A DNA stretch of 50,273 bases from the NCBI RefSeq assembly GCF_020480685.1, contig NZ_JAJAFU010000020.1:1-50273 (forward strand), read 5' to 3'. This DNA comes from Deferrivibrio essentukiensis. Its GTDB lineage: Bacteria; Chrysiogenota; Deferribacteres; Deferribacterales; Deferrivibrionaceae. Both the position numbers and the translations under genes were made by a program. The notes below the pieces were generated by a model. That model saw only the letters and a program-made list of their open reading frames with translations, searched no databases and was not told the DNA's origin. Each line of letters begins with the position of its first letter. Position 1 is the stretch's first letter. This document shows, one piece after another, positions 13,480 through 23,088 of the stretch.

Positions 13480-13508
13480 TTGACAACCTATCTGCTTAGG
13501 CGTAAGAT
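13480..13508 (+). promoter_or_regulatory. Sigma-70 promoter for the SulP gene
   Basis: TTGACA (13480-13485), 17 bases, TAAGAT (13503-13508). It lies 31 bases before the SulP ATG at 13540, so the in-frame TTG at 13480 is part of the -35 box and not a start codon. Confidence 0.75.
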
Positions 13509-13539
13509 CCCTTCAAAATTATCATATCTTGGAGTAAAT

Positions 13540-15234
13540 ATGAAAAGTGGTTACCTCAGTGAGTTTAAACCAGCCCTTTTTTCCTTACTAAAACATGGTT
13601 ACGGGGTAAAAAATCTTACTTCTGACATGATTAGTGGTCTTATTGTAGCAATTATCGCACTGCCATTATCGATGGCATTTGCAATTGCCAGTGGTGCCTC
13701 GCCGGAAAAGGGTCTTTATACCGCAATAATAGGTGGTTTTCTAATCTCATTTTTTGGTGGAAGCAGATACCAAATAGGAGGTCCTGCAGGTGCATTTATA
13801 GTTATAATTTACGGCATTATCTACAGGCAAGGTATTGACGGACTGTTAATTGCCGGAATCATGGCGGGACTTATCCTAATACTTATGGGCTTACTAAAGC
13901 TTGGAACAGTAATAAAATTTATCCCTTACCCTGTCACTAAAGGTTTTAGTGCAGGTATAGCAATCATAATATTTGTAACTCAGCTAAATGATTTTTTTGG
14001 TATGGGCATAAAGAAAGTACCTGCCGAATTTTTTGAAAAATTAGTTGAATATTCAAAACATATTGGCAATATAAACCTTTCAGCTACTATAGTGGGATTA
14101 GTATCTATCCTTATTATTGTATACTCCAAAAAAATTACGATGAAAATCCCGGGCCCTTTCCTGGCAGTAGTATTCGGGGTAGCTGCAATATATCTTTTAA
14201 AGCTTCCTATTGAAACAATACAGGATAGATTTGGGTCTATACCAAGTGGTCTACCGACCCCTACTTTTCCAAATATAACAATGGATAAAATAAAAGCGCT
14301 TATTCCAGATGCAATTACCATTGCAGTTTTAGGTGCCATTGAATCCCTCTTAAGTGCTGTAGTTGCAGATGGTATGACAGGGGACAAACACAGGTCAAAT
14401 ATGGAACTTGTAGCTCAAGGGATTGCAAACATCGCATCCCCTCTTTTTGGAGGTATCCCTGCCACAGGGACAATAGCAAGAACAGCCACAAACATCAAAA
14501 ATGGTGCATACTCCCCTCTAAGTGGAATATTCCATGCAATTTGGGTCTTATTATTTATGTTGCTGTTATCCCCTGTAATAGTAAAAATACCCTTTGCCAC
14601 ATTAGGCGGGATTCTCATTGTGGTAGCATACAACATGAGTGAGTTAGAGCATATAAAAAATTTATTTAAAGCACCTAAAAGTGACATTGCTGTATTTTTA
14701 ACAACATTTCTGTTAACCGTCATAGTAGATCTTAATGTTGCAGTGCAATTGGGTATGCTCTTATCCGTACTTCTATTTATGCGTAGAATGATAAGCTTGA
14801 CTGCCGTAAACAAGCTAAACATAACTTTGGATGTTGCTGAAGACTCAATGGACGATGGAATGGATGACAAAGATGCTATTGCTAACAAAGTAGTCCCAAA
14901 AGATGTGGAAATTTATGAGCTTAGTGGTCCATTTTTCTTCGGAGTAGCTGATAAAGTAAAAAGTGTCCTTACTTCATTAGAGGCATACCCAAAAGTTTTC
15001 ATCTTGCGTATGCGATACGTCCCTATGATAGATGCTACCGGCATGCATGCTCTAACTGAAATATGTAGTGAATATAAAAAGCATGGCACAAATGTCATAC
15101 TCTCAGGGGTATCTCCATATGTAAAAAAACTGCTTATTCAAGGCAGAATACATAAAATTATTGGCGAAGAAAATATAGTTGACCATATTGATAAGGCATT
15201 ATCAATAGCAAAAAAATATGTAGAACAGAGGTAA
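13540..15234 (+). CDS. SulP family anion transporter with STAS domain
   Basis: 564 residues. The SulP membrane domain (about residues 20-410, ten or more hydrophobic segments) begins FKPALFSLLKHGYGVKNLTS and includes the family signature region ASGASPEKGLYTAIIGGFLI with the glycine-rich FFGGSRYQIGGPAGAF. Later GGIPATGTIARTATNIKNGA is characteristic. The C-terminal STAS domain (about 450-560) has VEIYELSGPFFFG and LRMRYVPMIDATGMHAL. Known SulP members move sulfate, bicarbonate or dicarboxylates; the substrate cannot be read. ATG 13540 follows GGAGTAAAT. The gene has its own promoter and lies 101 bases upstream of the Ehr operon on the same strand. Confidence 0.92.
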   Translation: MKSGYLSEFKPALFSLLKHGYGVKNLTSDMISGLIVAIIALPLSMAFAIASGASPEKGLYTAIIGGFLISFFGGSRYQIGGPAGAFIVIIYGIIYRQGIDGLLIAGIMAGLILILMGLLKLGTVIKFIPYPVTKGFSAGIAIIIFVTQLNDFFGMGIKKVPAEFFEKLVEYSKHIGNINLSATIVGLVSILIIVYSKKITMKIPGPFLAVVFGVAAIYLLKLPIETIQDRFGSIPSGLPTPTFPNITMDKIKALIPDAITIAVLGAIESLLSAVVADGMTGDKHRSNMELVAQGIANIASPLFGGIPATGTIARTATNIKNGAYSPLSGIFHAIWVLLFMLLLSPVIVKIPFATLGGILIVVAYNMSELEHIKNLFKAPKSDIAVFLTTFLLTVIVDLNVAVQLGMLLSVLLFMRRMISLTAVNKLNITLDVAEDSMDDGMDDKDAIANKVVPKDVEIYELSGPFFFGVADKVKSVLTSLEAYPKVFILRMRYVPMIDATGMHALTEICSEYKKHGTNVILSGVSPYVKKLLIQGRIHKIIGEENIVDHIDKALSIAKKYVEQR

Positions 15235-15335: not shown

Positions 15336-17303
15336 ATGGTGAGCACAGGTGGCCTGTTTTTAATCTTTTGCTGTTTATTTGTTATTGTTGCTTTGTTGAC
15401 ACAAAAAATTAAGAATCAGGTTATACTTGTCTCACTCTTTACAGCTATATTTACCTACGTATTTATTGCCTCAATTTTTTTAGGCAGCAATTTTAATGTT
15501 CATATAGATACATTTTTTTGTCAGGCTACAGGTCAGCTTGATGGCCTAAGCAAGTTCTTTTTAATCCCCCTTTCTATAATTTCTGTATGTGCATTTATTT
15601 ACTCTTTTTATTACTTTCCTGAGTCAGATCATAAAAAAGAGTGGACAATTACAAGCATATTTTTCCCATTAATGACCTTCTCAATGGTAATGATAGTACT
15701 GGCAAAAAACCTTATAATGTTACTTATATTTTGGGAAATAATGGCCGTTTCAGCATTTTTCTTACTTATTACTGAGCATAAGTATGATGAAGTCAGAGAT
15801 GCTGCAAAGCTTTATATAATATTAACTCACTTCTGCACTTTTTTAATATTTGTCACTTCAATCTTGGTTTATAAATATACCGGGTCTTTTGATTTTCCAA
15901 AAACAGGTTCTCTTGACCCAGGCACTACAGTTGGTACAAGTATTTTTATATTTACTTTAGTTGGATTTGGGATAAAAGCGGGTATTTTACCGCTTCACAT
16001 CTGGTTGCCTTCTGCCCATGCCAATGCTCCAAGCAGCGTTTCAGCAATAATGTCAGGACTTATGATTAAAATGGGCATATATGGAATAATAAGGTACATA
16101 TCTTTCTTTCATAACCCGCCTTTATATTGGGGATTAATAATATTTGCAGCCGGTATCACCTCAGGAATTATCGGCGTCGTACTTGCAATAGGTCAACACG
16201 ATATAAAAAGACTCCTTGCATATCATAGTATTGAGAATATAGGTATAATACTTATGGGCTTGGGACTTGGTCTTGCCGGTATGTCTACAGGTAATGATAT
16301 AGCTATGGTTTTGGGCTTTGCTGGTTCAATATTTCACATTTTAAACCATGCCACTTTCAAATCTCTTCTATTCCTTGGTGCCGGTGTGATTATTAACGCA
16401 TCAGGGACAAGACAGATGGATGAGATGGGTGGACTTGCCAAAAAAATTCCATTTACATTTGGCACTTTTTTAATTGCTTCAGCTTCCATATCCGGACTTC
16501 CACCGTTTAACGGTTTTGTAAGTGAATTATTTATATATCTTGGTATGTTCGCTATTATTAGTAAAAGCAGTTTATTGCCGCTAAACTTCTTGCAACTAAT
16601 GGGAATCCCTGCTCTTGCACTGATAGGAGGGCTTGCTTCAGCCTGCTTTTTAAAAGTAAACAGTGCCGTATTCATGGGCACTAACCCAAATCTGCAAAAC
16701 GCTCCACAACGCAAATTTCAAGAGTCTTTCTACCTGAAAATATCTTTAGCTATACCTGCTCTTATGTGCATTGGGCTTGGCTTTTTCCCATATATTTTAA
16801 AGTCCCCGCTTGAAAATGTAATTTATTCATTAACAGGAAATTACTTTAACCTCTTCAATTATTTCCCTTTTAAAGAATTAAGTATTTTCGTTGGTATTTT
16901 TTATATATTCTTAATTTTAGGGCTTCTGGTATTTAAATTAGTTTATAAAAATAAAATTGAATATGCACCTGAGACTTGGGGCTGCGGTTATACAAAACCA
17001 AGCCATAAGTTTAGATACACCGCCACTTCTTTTGCCGAGATTATTACTGGGATATTTAACTTTATCTTAAATACGCATTATCACCGCAAAGATGTAAAAG
17101 GGGTATTTCCCAAAAAGGCATATTTTAAATCTCACGTGCCGGATATATTTCTCGATAATATAATTTTACCCCTCTTTCAATTTTTGGACGACAAACTTTC
17201 CCCCGTAAGAAAATTACAAGCGGGGAATCTCAATCTATACCTCCTCTATAAACTTATAGCTATTGTATCTCTTGTAATATACGGAGCAATTATAATATGG
17301 TAA
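15336..17303 (+). CDS. Ehr/HyfB-like antiporter-type membrane subunit (NuoL-like)
   Basis: 655 residues, about 15 hydrophobic segments. It is a proton-translocating antiporter-type subunit as in complex I (NuoL/M/N) and formate hydrogenlyase (HycC/HyfB). The essential Glu is in FWEIMAVSAFFLLI and the Lys helix in VGFGIKAGILPLHIWLPSAH. ANAPSSVSAIMSGLMIKMGIYG, HDIKRLLAYHSIENIGII and the GLPPFNGFVSE loop are canonical. A long extra C-terminal part (after about residue 500) with ETWGCGYTKPSHKFRYTATS is typical of HyfB-like rather than NuoL proteins. It is the first gene of a six-gene operon, and its 3' end overlaps the next start by 7 bases. Confidence 0.92.
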   Translation: MVSTGGLFLIFCCLFVIVALLTQKIKNQVILVSLFTAIFTYVFIASIFLGSNFNVHIDTFFCQATGQLDGLSKFFLIPLSIISVCAFIYSFYYFPESDHKKEWTITSIFFPLMTFSMVMIVLAKNLIMLLIFWEIMAVSAFFLLITEHKYDEVRDAAKLYIILTHFCTFLIFVTSILVYKYTGSFDFPKTGSLDPGTTVGTSIFIFTLVGFGIKAGILPLHIWLPSAHANAPSSVSAIMSGLMIKMGIYGIIRYISFFHNPPLYWGLIIFAAGITSGIIGVVLAIGQHDIKRLLAYHSIENIGIILMGLGLGLAGMSTGNDIAMVLGFAGSIFHILNHATFKSLLFLGAGVIINASGTRQMDEMGGLAKKIPFTFGTFLIASASISGLPPFNGFVSELFIYLGMFAIISKSSLLPLNFLQLMGIPALALIGGLASACFLKVNSAVFMGTNPNLQNAPQRKFQESFYLKISLAIPALMCIGLGFFPYILKSPLENVIYSLTGNYFNLFNYFPFKELSIFVGIFYIFLILGLLVFKLVYKNKIEYAPETWGCGYTKPSHKFRYTATSFAEIITGIFNFILNTHYHRKDVKGVFPKKAYFKSHVPDIFLDNIILPLFQFLDDKLSPVRKLQAGNLNLYLLYKLIAIVSLVIYGAIIIW

Positions 17304-18202
17304 AGATACTTTCTATAATATCAATTCTTACTGCACCTGTCATGATTTCCAGCACTATCGTAAAGGTGAAAGCCTTTTTTGCCGGCAGAAAGGGAGCACC
17401 TTTTTTTCAACCATATTATGACCTTATAAAGTTGTTTAAAAAGAACATCACAATCAGCAAAGATACAAGCTTCATATTTATACTCGGGACAATAGTAACC
17501 TTGATAGCTTCAATAATGATAATTTTCTTTATCCCCCTTGTTGCTAAAGATAGCTTTTTTTCCTTTAAAGGTGATATAGTTTTTGTCGCATATATGATGG
17601 CGCTCGGCAGATTTTTTATGGTTTTGGCTGCCCTTGATACAGGCTCAAGTTTTGAAGGGATGGGCTCCGCAAGAGAAGCCACATTCTCCATGTTGTCTGA
17701 ACCTGCACTTTTTCTCGCACTTATGGCAATCGTAGGAAAGAGTGGACTAATAACATTTGAATCAAGCTTTGCTCAAATATCTCCAAATATATGGATAACA
17801 AGCGGTATAGGCTTTCTGTTAATTGCAGTTGCACTTTTTATAATTATCCTTGTTGAAAATAGCCGAATGCCTATTGACGACCCCAATACCCACTTGGAAC
17901 TTACAATGATACACGAAGTAATGATACTCGACCACAGCGGACCACTTCTTGGGATAATGGAAATATCCGCACTTTTAAAAATGTTTGCTTTTATCTCGAT
18001 AATGTTTCATGTCGTTTTCCCGCTTAAATTTAATAATATTTTTATAAACTTCCTCTTTTACTACGTTGGCATGCTTGCTATTGCAGTAGTAATAGGGGTT
18101 GTAGAATCTACCATGGCAAGAATTAAACTTAAAAAGATACCTACTTTTCAAATCATTGTAATCGTACTTGCAGGAATCGGAATGTTTTTAACTTTGGAGT
18201 AA
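17297..18202 (+). CDS. Ehr/HyfC-like membrane subunit (NuoH-like)
   Basis: 301 residues with about eight hydrophobic segments. It is the NuoH/HycD/HyfC homologue that anchors the peripheral arm and lines the entry to the quinone-like cavity. FFAGRKGAPFFQPYYDLIKL near residue 25 is the family block (GRRGPxxxQPYYDLxKL). SMLSEPALFLALM and the charged loop LVENSRMPIDDPNTHLELTM with its Glu and Asp residues are retained. The start overlaps the end of the preceding gene, implying translational coupling. In complex I this subunit contacts the NuoB and NuoD homologues, here encoded at 21780 and 20287. Confidence 0.92.
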   Translation: MVKILSIISILTAPVMISSTIVKVKAFFAGRKGAPFFQPYYDLIKLFKKNITISKDTSFIFILGTIVTLIASIMIIFFIPLVAKDSFFSFKGDIVFVAYMMALGRFFMVLAALDTGSSFEGMGSAREATFSMLSEPALFLALMAIVGKSGLITFESSFAQISPNIWITSGIGFLLIAVALFIIILVENSRMPIDDPNTHLELTMIHEVMILDHSGPLLGIMEISALLKMFAFISIMFHVVFPLKFNNIFINFLFYYVGMLAIAVVIGVVESTMARIKLKKIPTFQIIVIVLAGIGMFLTLE

Positions 18203-18204
18203 CT

Positions 18205-18852
18205 ATGGAAAACTTTGTAGTCAATCAACTGCTTATAATTGTATTGTTGCTTAATTTCGGGATATTGGGCAGCAGTAGAATAAGATTTCATATTAGACTA
18301 CTTGCATTGCAAGGTTTTATTTTAGGTATCATCCCTATTTTCTTGTATGAAGAGATTGCCTTACATTCACTCCTGGTAGTTATTTTTCTTATTTTATCAA
18401 AAGGGGTATTAATCCCACTTTTTTTGATGACATCGCTAAAAAAGGTCAAAATAAACCTTGAAGTAGAAAACTTTATCAGTTTTATGCACAGCGTAGTTTT
18501 GGCAGCAATAGGGACAACCTTAATATTTGTCTTTTCTAAGCTGTTACCTGTAAATGGTGCACATAGCAGCACTTACTTTATTCAGGTATCTATATCTACA
18601 ATATTTGTAGCTTTTATAATCATAATATCCCGAATAAAGGCAATTTCATCAGTAATAGGATATCTGGTGCTTGAAAACGGAGTGTTTGTATTTGGTTTCC
18701 TCATCGCCAAACATATACCTTTCTCCCTTGAATTAGGTTTTTTACTCGATTTGATAGTTGGTATATTCATAATGGGAATCATACTAAATCATATTGACAG
18801 AGAATTTTCTTCCATAGACGTTACCCAACTCAAAAGCTTGAGGGATGAATAA
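18205..18852 (+). CDS. Ehr/HyfE-like membrane subunit (NuoK-related)
   Basis: 215 residues, six or seven hydrophobic helices. It matches HyfE/HyfE-like hydrogenase-4 component E, which contains a NuoK-like core. The N-terminal GILGSSRIRFHIRLLALQGF and the later SSVIGYLVLENGVFVFGFLI with its conserved Glu fit the family; MGIILNHIDREFSSIDVTQL is the usual tail. It begins two bases after the preceding stop and its stop overlaps the next ATG by one base. Confidence 0.88.
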   Translation: MENFVVNQLLIIVLLLNFGILGSSRIRFHIRLLALQGFILGIIPIFLYEEIALHSLLVVIFLILSKGVLIPLFLMTSLKKVKINLEVENFISFMHSVVLAAIGTTLIFVFSKLLPVNGAHSSTYFIQVSISTIFVAFIIIISRIKAISSVIGYLVLENGVFVFGFLIAKHIPFSLELGFLLDLIVGIFIMGIILNHIDREFSSIDVTQLKSLRDE

Positions 18853-20294
18853 TGTATCTTTTAGTATTTATAGGCGTAATCGTCGTTTTGACTGTCCTTA
18901 GTCTGTTAATCAGAGATGATAGAAAAAGACCTATTATAATTTTAATATGCGGTTTATTTAACTTTGCTTACAGTATCTATATTTTTCATTATGTTCAATC
19001 TTCTATATTCCCGGATTATATCAAATTTGACAGTATCGGTAAAATTATCTACCTTTCTTACTCCATACTTTTCTTTTCATTGTCAGTATATGCATCAAAT
19101 TATCTAAAAATACGCTCAGATAGGGGGAATAGGATTTTTATTGTTTCCATGATGGCAAATCTTTTATCGGCACAATTTGCATGTATGGCCCAAGATTTTG
19201 GAGTATTATGGGCATCCATGGAGGCTGCAACACTTTCGGTCACACCGCTTATATATTTCAATAAAACCAAATTTTCAATTGAAGCTACTTGGAAATTCAT
19301 ACTTCTTACTTCAACAGGGATTGCTGTTGCTCTACTCGGGACATATATGCTTGGATTTACAGCACTTCAAACAGACGGACAAGGGACTATTAATTTTCTT
19401 AGGTTACAGAGTATAGTTCCAAAAATGGATGTAAAATGGCTGTTCTTTTCTACACTTTTTATGGTTATTGGTTATGCATCAAAAATAGGGCTTGCCCCTT
19501 TTCACTGGTGGAAACCTGACAGCTATGGAGAGGCTCCCGGGCTTATAGGTGGGCTGTTGTCAGGTGGACTTGTAAGTTTGGCTGCACTATGTCTTTTAAG
19601 AATATATCAGATACTTTCAGGTAGCGAGGTTTTAATCTATATCAGCCACATTTTACTTATATTAGGTGTTTTATCTTTGGCAATTGCAGCTATTTTTGCT
19701 GTAAAGCAGAAGGACTTAAAAAGGTTGCTTGCTTATTCTTCTGTTGAGCATGTAGGTATAATCGCCGTGGGGCTTGGCATAGGTAAGATGGCAATTTTCG
19801 GAAGCCTGTTGCATATCATGTTTAATACCTTTGCAAAAGGGGTGCTCTTTTTGAACGCAGCTGATATACAACGAATTTATGGAAATAAGAAAATTCAAAA
19901 TATAAGCGGATTGATTTCTATATCTCCAACAATCGGATGGGTTTTTATCTTGGGATTATTTGCAGCTGCCGGCTCACCCCCTTTTAGTCTATTTATCAGT
20001 GAGTTTTACATATTTCTCTACGGTTTTAAGTATGGGTATAGTGTAACAACATTAGTTGTTATAATTTTATTGGGACTTATTTTTATAGGACTTATCAAGG
20101 CAGGCATCAGCATAGCATATGGAACTCCGAGCACTGATAGTATTCAGTTAAAAGAATTTAAACCTACTAAAATAATGCTATTATCAGAAATCTTATTACT
20201 TGCAATACTTTTAATCCCTTTGTTTTACTTTCCGCAGAATATTCTTAGCACAATTAAAGATTCCCTTTTAATTTTGGGGGTAACAAATGGTTAG
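18852..20294 (+). CDS. Ehr/HyfF-like antiporter-type membrane subunit (NuoN/M-like)
   Basis: 480 residues, the second antiporter-like subunit of the complex. The ion-path residues are present: Glu in WASMEAATLSVTPLIYF and Lys in IGYASKIGLAPFHWWKPDSY. EAPGLIGGLLSGGLVSLAAL, KQKDLKRLLAYSSVEHVGII and LFAAAGSPPFSLFISEF are family blocks. Together with the 655-residue subunit this gives two putative ion channels. Start and stop both overlap the neighbouring genes (1 and 8 bases). Confidence 0.92.
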   Translation: MYLLVFIGVIVVLTVLSLLIRDDRKRPIIILICGLFNFAYSIYIFHYVQSSIFPDYIKFDSIGKIIYLSYSILFFSLSVYASNYLKIRSDRGNRIFIVSMMANLLSAQFACMAQDFGVLWASMEAATLSVTPLIYFNKTKFSIEATWKFILLTSTGIAVALLGTYMLGFTALQTDGQGTINFLRLQSIVPKMDVKWLFFSTLFMVIGYASKIGLAPFHWWKPDSYGEAPGLIGGLLSGGLVSLAALCLLRIYQILSGSEVLIYISHILLILGVLSLAIAAIFAVKQKDLKRLLAYSSVEHVGIIAVGLGIGKMAIFGSLLHIMFNTFAKGVLFLNAADIQRIYGNKKIQNISGLISISPTIGWVFILGLFAAAGSPPFSLFISEFYIFLYGFKYGYSVTTLVVIILLGLIFIGLIKAGISIAYGTPSTDSIQLKEFKPTKIMLLSEILLLAILLIPLFYFPQNILSTIKDSLLILGVTNG

Positions 20295-21768
20295 ATTCAA
20301 ACAAAACCCTTCAATGATTAAGTTAGAAAACCTACCATTTCTTACCAATGACGTTTTTTATGAAAAAATTATTAAAGCAGTTGAAAATTCAGGAAGAATT
20401 GCATCTTACTTTGTTTACAAGTATAAAGATAAATTAAATGCTTTAGCAGTAATACTCTTTGATGAGACAAAGGAATTTGAATTATTTGCTACTGAGATTA
20501 ATAAAAAATTAAATCCTCTTTACAATAAAGTTCCGCAAATTTACAACTTTGAAAGAGAAATTTTTGAACAGTATCCGGATGCAATACATGGTGAAGGGCT
20601 GAAGCCTCTAAGATTTCACAAACCATTTGAAGGTAAAGGAAAAAGTAACCAAATAGGTGATATGGACTTTTTTGAAATAGACTCACATGAAACTCATCAG
20701 GTAGGTGTAGGACCTGTACATGCAGGTATCATCGAGCCGGGGCATTTTAGATTTAACTGTTACGGCGAACAAGTACTTTCACTTGAAATATCCCTCGGTT
20801 ATCAACACAGAGGCATAGAGAAATCTTTAATCGGCGGACCATACAAAGATAGTTTTTACAAAATCCAAACTGCATCAGGCGATTCAACTGTTGCACATAC
20901 AATTTGTTATCTTGGAAATTTAGAGGCATTGTCAAAAGTTGAGCCTCATATTGACTCACAACTAAAGAGGATGGCGGCACTTGAGCTTGAAAGGATTGCC
21001 AATCATGTAGGAGACCTCGGTGGACTTGCCACTGATATAGGTTTTTTACCTACCGCATCTTACTGCGGAAGAATTAGAGGTGATTTTTTAAACATGACTG
21101 CTGACTTGTGTGGCAATAGGTTTGGCAGAAGCTTGCTCTCATTTGGCGGCGAAAAGGTAGAAAAGAGCATCTTTGAAAAAATTGTCAAAAAGATCGATGC
21201 ATTAAAACCAAATCTCTTAGGTGCAGTAGAAATGTTGTGGAATACCCCTTCTGTAATGAGCAGATTTGACAATACAGGTGTTTTACCTAAGGAAATTGCC
21301 GTGGAATTGGGTATAGTGGGACTACATCGCCGTGCATCCGGGATCAATAATGATATAAGAAAGGATTTACCTTTTTTATTGTATAATAAGTATTTTAAAG
21401 AAATTCAAACCGAAGACCTTCACGGAGATGTCTTGGGCAGAGGACTTGTAAGATACAGGGAGATTTTAAATTCTTTAAACATGTTTACAGATATTGCAAG
21501 CGACATTAACGATAGAGCACAGGAGCAACATTCAAACTGCTTACTGAATGCTAATTCGATTTCGGTGAGCTTTAGTGAAGGGTTTAGGGGCGAAATATGC
21601 CATGTCGCCATTACTGATGAAGATGGAAAACTATTAAGGTATAAAATAGTCGACCCATCTTTTCATAACTGGAATGGGCTGGCATATGTGGTAAGAAATG
21701 AAGGGATATACGATTTTCCACTGTGCAATAAGAGTTTTAACCTTTCATATTGCGGGTTTGATCTTTAA
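20287..21768 (+). CDS. Ehr large subunit, NiFe-hydrogenase/NuoCD-like without NiFe ligands
   Basis: 493 residues: an N-terminal NuoC-like domain (about 1-120) fused to a NuoD/hydrogenase large-subunit domain, the HycE/HyfG layout. GPVHAGIIEPGHFRFNCYGE and SLGYQHRGIEKS are the first family block. Where a [NiFe] hydrogenase has its first Cys pair, this protein has ASGDS at residues 196-200, followed by TVAHT. Where the second CxxC belongs the C-terminus reads NLSYCGFDL (485-493) with one Cys. A NiFe centre is therefore not expected. This is the mark of energy-converting-hydrogenase-related (Ehr) complexes, thought to join a redox or conformational step to ion transport. The start overlaps the preceding gene by 8 bases. 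Confidence 0.9.
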   Translation: MVRFKQNPSMIKLENLPFLTNDVFYEKIIKAVENSGRIASYFVYKYKDKLNALAVILFDETKEFELFATEINKKLNPLYNKVPQIYNFEREIFEQYPDAIHGEGLKPLRFHKPFEGKGKSNQIGDMDFFEIDSHETHQVGVGPVHAGIIEPGHFRFNCYGEQVLSLEISLGYQHRGIEKSLIGGPYKDSFYKIQTASGDSTVAHTICYLGNLEALSKVEPHIDSQLKRMAALELERIANHVGDLGGLATDIGFLPTASYCGRIRGDFLNMTADLCGNRFGRSLLSFGGEKVEKSIFEKIVKKIDALKPNLLGAVEMLWNTPSVMSRFDNTGVLPKEIAVELGIVGLHRRASGINNDIRKDLPFLLYNKYFKEIQTEDLHGDVLGRGLVRYREILNSLNMFTDIASDINDRAQEQHSNCLLNANSISVSFSEGFRGEICHVAITDEDGKLLRYKIVDPSFHNWNGLAYVVRNEGIYDFPLCNKSFNLSYCGFDL

Positions 21769-21779
21769 GAGGAGAATTT

Positions 21780-22529
21780 ATGTTTAACATATTAAAGGAA
21801 AGATTATTTCAAAAATACAGAACCATGAAATTTCCTTTTAGTACTGATAATATGCCGGATAAGTTTTTAGGACTACCTGAAATATCAAACCTAACTAATA
21901 ACGAATTAGAACACTTGAAACGAATTTGTCCAACAGACGCATTTATCTGTCAAAATAATGAAATAGGTATCGACCTTGGTAGATGTATCTTTTGCGGTGA
22001 ATGTCTAAAACACACAAAAAATATTCATTTTTCAAAGGATTATGCACTTGGTACTACAGATAGAAATGATTTGATTATAACAAGTAAAAAAAGATTTATT
22101 GATAAATCTACCAAAGAATTTTTATTTAAAAAACTTTTAAAAAAATCATTAAAACTTAGACAGGTAAGTGCCGGCGGTTGTAATGCCTGTGAAGCTGATG
22201 TAAACGTGCTTGGAACAGTAGGCTGGGATTTGGGCAGATTCGGAATTCAATTTGTAGCATCCCCAAGGCATGCGGACGGTATATTAGTAACAGGTCCTGT
22301 TACCAAAAATATGGAAATCGCATTAATGAAAACATATGAAGCGACACCAAAGCCAAAGATTGTCATAGCTTGTGGTGCCTGTGCCATAAGCGGAGGCCCT
22401 TTTTTCAACTCTGACGAAATTGTTGGCGGTGTAGACAAAATGTTGGAAGTTGATCTTTATATCCCCGGTTGTCCCCCTCACCCTGCTACTATCCTCAGCT
22501 CCCTTTTAAAATTCTTAGGAAAAATTTAG
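21780..22529 (+). CDS. Ehr small subunit, ferredoxin-like plus NuoB-like
   Basis: 249 residues, a fusion of an N-terminal ferredoxin-like part and a NuoB/HycG-like part. The first part has Cys69, Cys72, Cys75 (RCIFCGECLKH) with Cys50 before a Pro, enough for one [4Fe-4S] cluster instead of the usual two. The second part keeps the N2-type ligands: Cys134 and Cys137 (GGCNACEAD), Cys201 (GACAISGGPF) and Cys231 (PGCPPHP). So the cluster next to the lost NiFe site is retained. GGAG lies just before the ATG. It is the last gene of the operon. No HycH/HycI-type maturation protease follows, as expected if no NiFe site is built. Confidence 0.9.
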   Translation: MFNILKERLFQKYRTMKFPFSTDNMPDKFLGLPEISNLTNNELEHLKRICPTDAFICQNNEIGIDLGRCIFCGECLKHTKNIHFSKDYALGTTDRNDLIITSKKRFIDKSTKEFLFKKLLKKSLKLRQVSAGGCNACEADVNVLGTVGWDLGRFGIQFVASPRHADGILVTGPVTKNMEIALMKTYEATPKPKIVIACGACAISGGPFFNSDEIVGGVDKMLEVDLYIPGCPPHPATILSSLLKFLGKI

Positions 22530-22725: not shown

Positions 22726-23088
22726 ATGGAAAGAATCAATTTTTGGAAACATAAGGACAAAATGATAATCTTTTTTGATTTTTCAGGTTGTAAAGAAGAT
22801 GAATTTATGAAAACTCTTGAAGACGCAAGAAGTATTGTGAGAAGATTAAAAAAAGATGTGCTGCTTACACTTGTCGATGTAACAAATACGGAATCAAACG
22901 ACCGCACAAATAGAGCAATTAAAGAATTTGCAGCCGAAAATAAACCTTACGTAAAAGCTGGTGCCGTAGTGGGGGTGTTTGGACTAAAAAAACTTGTCTA
23001 CCAGATAGTGATGAAATTTACAGGAAGAAACAACTTAAAACTCTTCAACACCGTACAAGAGGCTAAGGACTGGCTTGCAACACAATAA
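22726..23088 (+). CDS. SpoIIAA/STAS-like small cytoplasmic protein
   Basis: 120 residues, no signal peptide or membrane helix. The pattern MIIFFDFSGCKEDEFMKTLE, then VLLTLVDVTNTESNDRTNRA and AGAVVGVFGLKKLVYQIVMK resembles SpoIIAA-like (STAS/SEC14-type) proteins, which are small alpha/beta folds. In known STAS proteins this fold mediates protein-protein or anti-sigma interactions or binds lipophilic ligands. It has its own promoter 196 bases after the Ehr operon. The upstream SulP transporter also has a STAS domain, but a functional link is only speculation. Confidence 0.7.
   Translation: MERINFWKHKDKMIIFFDFSGCKEDEFMKTLEDARSIVRRLKKDVLLTLVDVTNTESNDRTNRAIKEFAAENKPYVKAGAVVGVFGLKKLVYQIVMKFTGRNNLKLFNTVQEAKDWLATQ

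Follow-up and report, generated by a model that had tools for sequence, protein, structure and literature searches.

Ehr in Deferrivibrio essentukiensis: a relative of group 4 hydrogenases that has lost its NiFe ligands

The Ehr gene cluster

The window analysed here is a 50,273-nucleotide stretch of the Deferrivibrio essentukiensis genome (contig NZ_JAJAFU010000020.1, positions 1 to 50,273 of the forward strand). Between positions 15336 and 22529 open reading frame calling finds six genes on the plus strand, with neighbours abutting or overlapping. These are the genes of the known Ehr complex, ehrABCDLS, as an initial annotation made from the sequence had proposed on the basis of its six reading frames; family matches and a recurrent gene order now bear this out. 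The subunits are as follows.

15336..17303, plus strand: EhrA, HyfB/HycC/NuoL-like antiporter subunit, 655 residues; profile match, nearest to hydrogenase-4 subunit B; ion-path residues E134, K214 and K342
17297..18202, plus strand: EhrB, HycD/MbhM/NuoH-like membrane anchor, 301 residues; profile and solved-structure matches
18205..18852, plus strand: EhrC, HyfE-like (NuoK-like) subunit, 215 residues; profile match
18852..20294, plus strand: EhrD, HyfF/NuoN-like antiporter subunit, 480 residues; profile match; ion-path residues E124, K211 and K329
20287..21768, plus strand: EhrL, HycE/NuoCD-like large subunit, 493 residues; matches NuoD and FpoD, and HycE among solved structures
21780..22529, plus strand: EhrS, small subunit with a ferredoxin-like domain and a NuoB/HycG-type domain, 249 residues; profile match

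The ion-path positions were read from an alignment of EhrA and EhrD with E. coli HyfB, HyfD, HyfF, HycC and NuoL/M/N, and they substantiate the earlier claim of two antiporter-type subunits with glutamate and lysine ion-path residues. The solved structures closest to EhrB are the M subunit of the membrane-bound hydrogenase (MBH) and HycD of formate hydrogenlyase (FHL), not NuoH.

Ehr has been described from Geobacter sulfurreducens (GSU0739-0745), M. tuberculosis (Rv0082-Rv0087) and, as EhrL, comammox Nitrospira; these accounts present it as lacking NiFe ligands and assign it no function (PMC6688271, PMC8691401, PMC6728331, PMC10284858). The complex in our window is an ordinary and complete member of this family, whose function is biochemically uncharacterised. 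It shares the subunits, the gene order and the loss of NiFe ligands with the described complexes, but has a SulP transporter gene upstream in place of a regulator with HTH and EIIA domains. Unlike the Geobacter-type loci it has a single EhrA, and unlike most of its relatives its EhrS has lost one ferredoxin cluster.

A scan of a species-level genome collection with a profile of eight EhrL sequences confirmed at least 575 Ehr loci, 80 of which were kept for comparison. The order A-B-C-D-L-S is near-universal in these 80 loci, which come from many phyla; because the same set and order recur in nearly all of them, the gene set is not a product of chance. About one fifth carry an extra EhrA-like gene up- or downstream, as in Geobacter. 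Two loci (L081:4483-19883 and L022:5148-21451) each carry a pair of adjoining Ehr clusters, both complete or nearly so, of which the second is more diverged. In a search of a plasmid collection, several large plasmids of soil bacteria were found to carry Ehr-like clusters, and a search of a phage collection gave weak Ehr matches only.

Loss of the NiFe site

EhrL was compared with its relatives in an alignment of 91 EhrL, 13 hydrogenase and 9 NuoD sequences, and in a second alignment that included E. coli HyaB. The four NiFe ligands of HyaB, C76, C79, C576 and C579, align to S197, S200, S487 and G490 of EhrL. Across the 91 sequences position 197 is A, S or V, with cysteine in just one of them, position 200 is T, S or A, position 487 is always S and position 490 is always G. 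The motif ASGDS (196-200) thus stands in place of CGIC, as the initial annotation had read it. The same annotation held that the C-terminal motif, NLSYCGFDL, keeps one cysteine. The cysteine is indeed there (C489), but it occupies a non-ligand position, because the C576/C579 pair falls on S487 and G490. C489 itself aligns to the serine between the HycE ligands (C-Y-S-C against S-Y-C-G) and is replaced by S or A in 6 of the 91 sequences, including the Rhodococcus, Rhizobium and Methylocalor proteins. We therefore rejected C489 as a leftover metal ligand.

The proposal that Ehr is a true hydrogenase was rejected too, as the EhrL of the window has no ligand cysteine and none of its 91 relatives has more than one. 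Group 4 [NiFe] hydrogenases are recognized by two CxxC motifs and by an extension that a protease removes; EhrL has neither. Its end coincides with the mature end of HycE at the protease cleavage position, and the EhrL proteins of the genome loci share the same terminal motif; EhrL is therefore made without a maturation tail.

The predicted structure of EhrL, confident over most of its length (mean predicted local distance difference test score, pLDDT, 91.3; predicted template modelling score, pTM, 0.93), has HycE of the E. coli formate hydrogenlyase as its top solved match, over its full length (Z 40.5, root-mean-square deviation 2.4, 473 residues aligned, 23% identity), with complex I structures behind it at Z 37.1 or less. 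In two unrooted maximum-likelihood trees, built with 3 and 13 hydrogenases and the first of them with long branches, EhrL forms one clade with 100/100 support that joins nearest to HycE/HyfG and stands apart from complex I and from the true group 4 hydrogenases. The initial annotation had named two outcomes that would count against it, four ligand cysteines in the large subunit and a place for EhrL inside the true group 4 hydrogenases. The alignments contain no such set of cysteines, and the fully supported clade lies outside.

A pocket with residues of its own

What has become of the vacated site? Five residues, D199, N481, K482, S487 and G490, are invariant across the 91 EhrL sequences and are found at these positions in none of the compared hydrogenases or NuoD proteins; the same is true of D456 and F477. 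E150 and R434 belong to the outer shell of the hydrogenase site, R434 being the equivalent of the canopy residue Arg509 of HyaB; Ehr retains both, whereas NuoD has Gly at the first position and mostly Lys at the second. Further changes are D574 of HyaB to N485 and P508 to an aromatic residue, while E28 of HyaB aligns to either I149 or E150, with a one-residue gap in the sequence alignment that allows both. The former NiFe pocket has not decayed, and we infer selection for a new function there, in the binding of a polar molecule or in acid-base chemistry. The pattern suggests that the old active site was rebuilt for a small polar molecule rather than for quinone.

One rival reading is a quinone reductase. 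Quinone would be reduced in a chamber resembling that of complex I, where different residues stand in for His and Tyr, and both the fold that EhrL shares with NuoD (Z up to 37.1) and the menaquinone genes MqnA/D in the window's genome are consistent with this. The pocket argues the other way: the quinone-binding residues of complex I (His38 and Tyr87), which are H and Y in all nine NuoD sequences, correspond to I149 and G198, and D199, N481 and K482 make the site more polar. The kinship of EhrB with the MBH and FHL anchors, and not with NuoH, points in the same direction.

The hosts add to these doubts. We scored MqnA/D, MenD and the UbiA family, ubiquinone genes not being scored separately, in 22 Ehr genomes that were hand-picked, mostly from anaerobic lineages, and so form a non-random sample in which many genomes are metagenome-derived and incomplete. 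MqnA/D was found in 7 of them and MenD above cut-off in none, which leaves 15 of 22 with neither menaquinone marker; a UbiA-family match was absent from 5 of the 22 and present in all 14 control genomes. A published Ehr-bearing lineage is likewise without full quinone pathways (PMC6349859). Because one conserved pocket spans hosts with and without menaquinone markers, quinone is unlikely to be the general Ehr substrate, and we regard a quinone reductase as improbable. The initial annotation had envisaged an ion pump possibly running a quinone-like or ferredoxin-driven reaction; its quinone part is weakened by the missing His and Tyr, by the invariant charged residues of the pocket and by the 15 genomes, and its ferredoxin-driven ion pump is the part that we retain below.

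The genome of D. essentukiensis has MqnA/D, complex I and a second set of three antiporter-type genes, as well as two NiFe hydrogenase large subunits elsewhere and HypD. Ehr is therefore an addition to these systems in this organism, not a substitute for them.

EhrS and the electron input

The proximal cluster of EhrS is predicted to be held by C134 and C137 (in CNAC, 134-137), C201 and C231, which are invariant in 15 diverse EhrS proteins. Their spacing and the motif SPRHAD are those of the MBH and FHL small subunits. The NuoB subunit of complex I has an adjacent, tandem cysteine pair for cluster N2 (PMC7684303); EhrS has C134-x-x-C137 in its place. The four cysteines that had been described as N2-type are thus of the hydrogenase type, and that part of the initial annotation has to be corrected. 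The N-terminal ferredoxin domain of the window's EhrS has cysteines for one [4Fe-4S] cluster only (C50, C69, C72 and C75), as against two clusters in most of the relatives among the 15 diverse members. A ferredoxin-type electron donor is plausible for a small subunit built in this way.

These cysteines also bear on a comparison with the archaeal MBS, the characterised NiFe-less relative, in which the reaction takes place at the proximal cluster (PMC7684303). Ehr and MBS are both NiFe-less with an Mrp-like membrane arm, and Ehr could in principle be a sulfane-sulfur reductase that acts at the proximal cluster itself. However, MBS retains two of the large subunit's four cysteines and has a three-cysteine proximal cluster, against none of four and a four-cysteine cluster in the window's Ehr. 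The MBS pocket is described as highly hydrophobic, in contrast to the invariant charged residues of the Ehr motifs. An MBS-like reaction is for these reasons barely credible.

Gene neighbours

A scan of 82 plus-strand neighbour proteins of Ehr found a single family that recurs often, HTH_17/PTS_EIIA_2. A protein that combines HTH_17 and PTS EIIA-2 domains adjoins EhrA in 37 of the 57 loci that have at least 1 kb upstream, its gene lying immediately ahead of EhrA or separating EhrA from EhrB (L026-L105; e.g. L046:4238-4996 and L110:2695-3360). The PH motif of the phosphorylated histidine is kept, by a simple pattern, in 38 of 42 such proteins, and at one locus (L111:1409-2074) the regulator is apparently split over two reading frames. 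It has no match in the genome of the window, and we found no published account of an EIIA-HTH regulator with hydrogenase-4 genes.

Could Ehr be a redox-gated antiporter? EhrL and EhrS would then be non-catalytic, using their [4Fe-4S] clusters to sense a donor's redox state and gating Na+/H+ exchange for pH or ion homeostasis. PTS_EIIA-type domains are known from ion-homeostasis control, and the regulator is the commonest neighbour of Ehr. Some members have the proximal cluster only and no partner gene, which would suit a sensor, and for Methylacidiphilum annotation has led to the proposal of a role in pH homeostasis (PMC6688271). However, the former active site ranks with the best-conserved parts of EhrL and has Ehr-specific charged residues, for which a pure sensor would have no need. 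On balance we consider such an antiporter unlikely.

The upstream neighbour in our window is a different gene.

13480..15234, plus strand: SulP-family anion transporter with a STAS domain, about 100 bp upstream of EhrA

No other SulP occurs in the genome. The protein scores above the cut-off of the general sulP model and below those of the DauA and BicA models. A sister species has the same SulP-Ehr arrangement, and its SulP is 96% identical. Elsewhere, SulP lies in the flanks of 5 of the 80 Ehr loci, where about 0.17 would be expected from the density of SulP in Ehr genomes; the five are not fully independent, as two are from Verrucomicrobiota and two from Planctomycetota. We infer that SulP may belong to the Ehr unit. 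Just downstream of EhrS, at 22726-23088, there is a small protein weakly like SpoIIAA, with 96% identity in the sister species.

At one planctomycete locus (L039:2498-12371) the genes directly after Ehr encode DabA, two antiporter-type subunits and a fusion of SulP with a P-II domain, which suggests an inorganic-carbon locus. DabA was considered as a general Ehr partner and rejected, being present at this locus only. The presence of SulP next to Ehr both in this genus and at four to five further loci, of which one also has DabA/DabB, hints that Ehr might be a redox-powered ion pump that handles a small oxyanion or CO2/bicarbonate. The species imported by SulP would bind in the rebuilt NiFe pocket and the HTH-EIIA protein would link the complex to carbon or nitrogen status; as it stands we hold this to be highly improbable.

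Proposed mechanism

Our preferred reading, which we put forward tentatively and as something short of probable, is that Ehr is a membrane ion pump of the complex I / group 4 hydrogenase superfamily, working at low potential, probably ferredoxin-fed and acting on a small polar substrate. A soluble ferredoxin, the most likely low-potential one-electron donor, would dock on EhrS. Electrons would pass from the [4Fe-4S] cluster of EhrS to the proximal cluster, whose hydrogenase-type four-cysteine ligation is seen in the sequence. They would then reach the vacated NiFe pocket, where D199, N481, K482, S487, G490, E150 and R434 would lie close together if homology is a guide to their arrangement. This pocket may bind a small substrate, polar or anionic, that is not H2 and as a rule not a quinone, and the energy of the reaction would drive H+ or Na+ transport via EhrB, EhrC, EhrD and EhrA, with the ion-path residues listed above. 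The adjoining SulP anion transporter is probably linked, in this genus, either to the gradient or to the substrate.

Several observations weigh against this mechanism. The EhrL model is of low confidence at residues 146-148 and over the last 10 or so residues, both of them active-site segments, which correspond to subunit contacts in the relatives. The ferredoxin domain is absent from the EhrS of Rhizobium, Rhodococcus and Methylocalor, and a ferredoxin donor may therefore not be general. No redox partner gene is common to the Ehr neighbourhoods among the 82 proteins scanned, and the published Ehr descriptions cited here report no measured substrate, activity or pumping.

The electrons could also come from formate, through a formate dehydrogenase encoded elsewhere, and Ehr would then be a short respiratory or formate-oxidising pump. 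Formate hydrogenlyase is the nearest kin of Ehr, a formate dehydrogenase-Ehr complex has been proposed for Riflemargulisbacteria and Saganbacteria (PMC6349859), and G. sulfurreducens contains more of the Ehr subunits on formate than when hydrogen is present (PMC7894505), an observation that also counts in favour of our preferred reading. However, no formate dehydrogenase is among the most frequent families in the 82 Ehr-neighbour genes and the model is still without an acceptor, so that a formate-linked complex seems decidedly improbable.

Comparison with known systems and significance

Among known systems Ehr comes closest to formate hydrogenlyase and hydrogenase-4 (HycE and HyfG; group 4a [NiFe]), which give the best full-length match to EhrL in both fold and sequence. 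With them it shares a hydrogenase-type small subunit and a membrane arm of HyfB-, HyfE- and HyfF-like proteins. It differs in having neither the NiFe cysteines nor a cleavable C-terminal tail, and in a cluster that contains no formate dehydrogenase or maturation genes. With complex I (NuoCD, NuoB and NuoH) there is common ancestry and a common fold, and the NiFe cysteines are lost in both, but Ehr is without the quinone His and Tyr, the tandem cysteines of NuoB and the NADH module, in a genome that has a separate complex I. The two large-subunit cysteines and three-cysteine cluster of MBS (PMC7684303) have no counterpart in Ehr.

Ehr is a widespread complex with no known reaction, and its hosts include Geobacter, mycobacteria and comammox Nitrospira. 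The residues that replaced the NiFe site, the frequent lack of menaquinone markers and two recurrent neighbours now make the question of its substrate a testable one. Should a new substrate be found, Ehr would represent a third route from hydrogenase ancestors, beside complex I and MBS.

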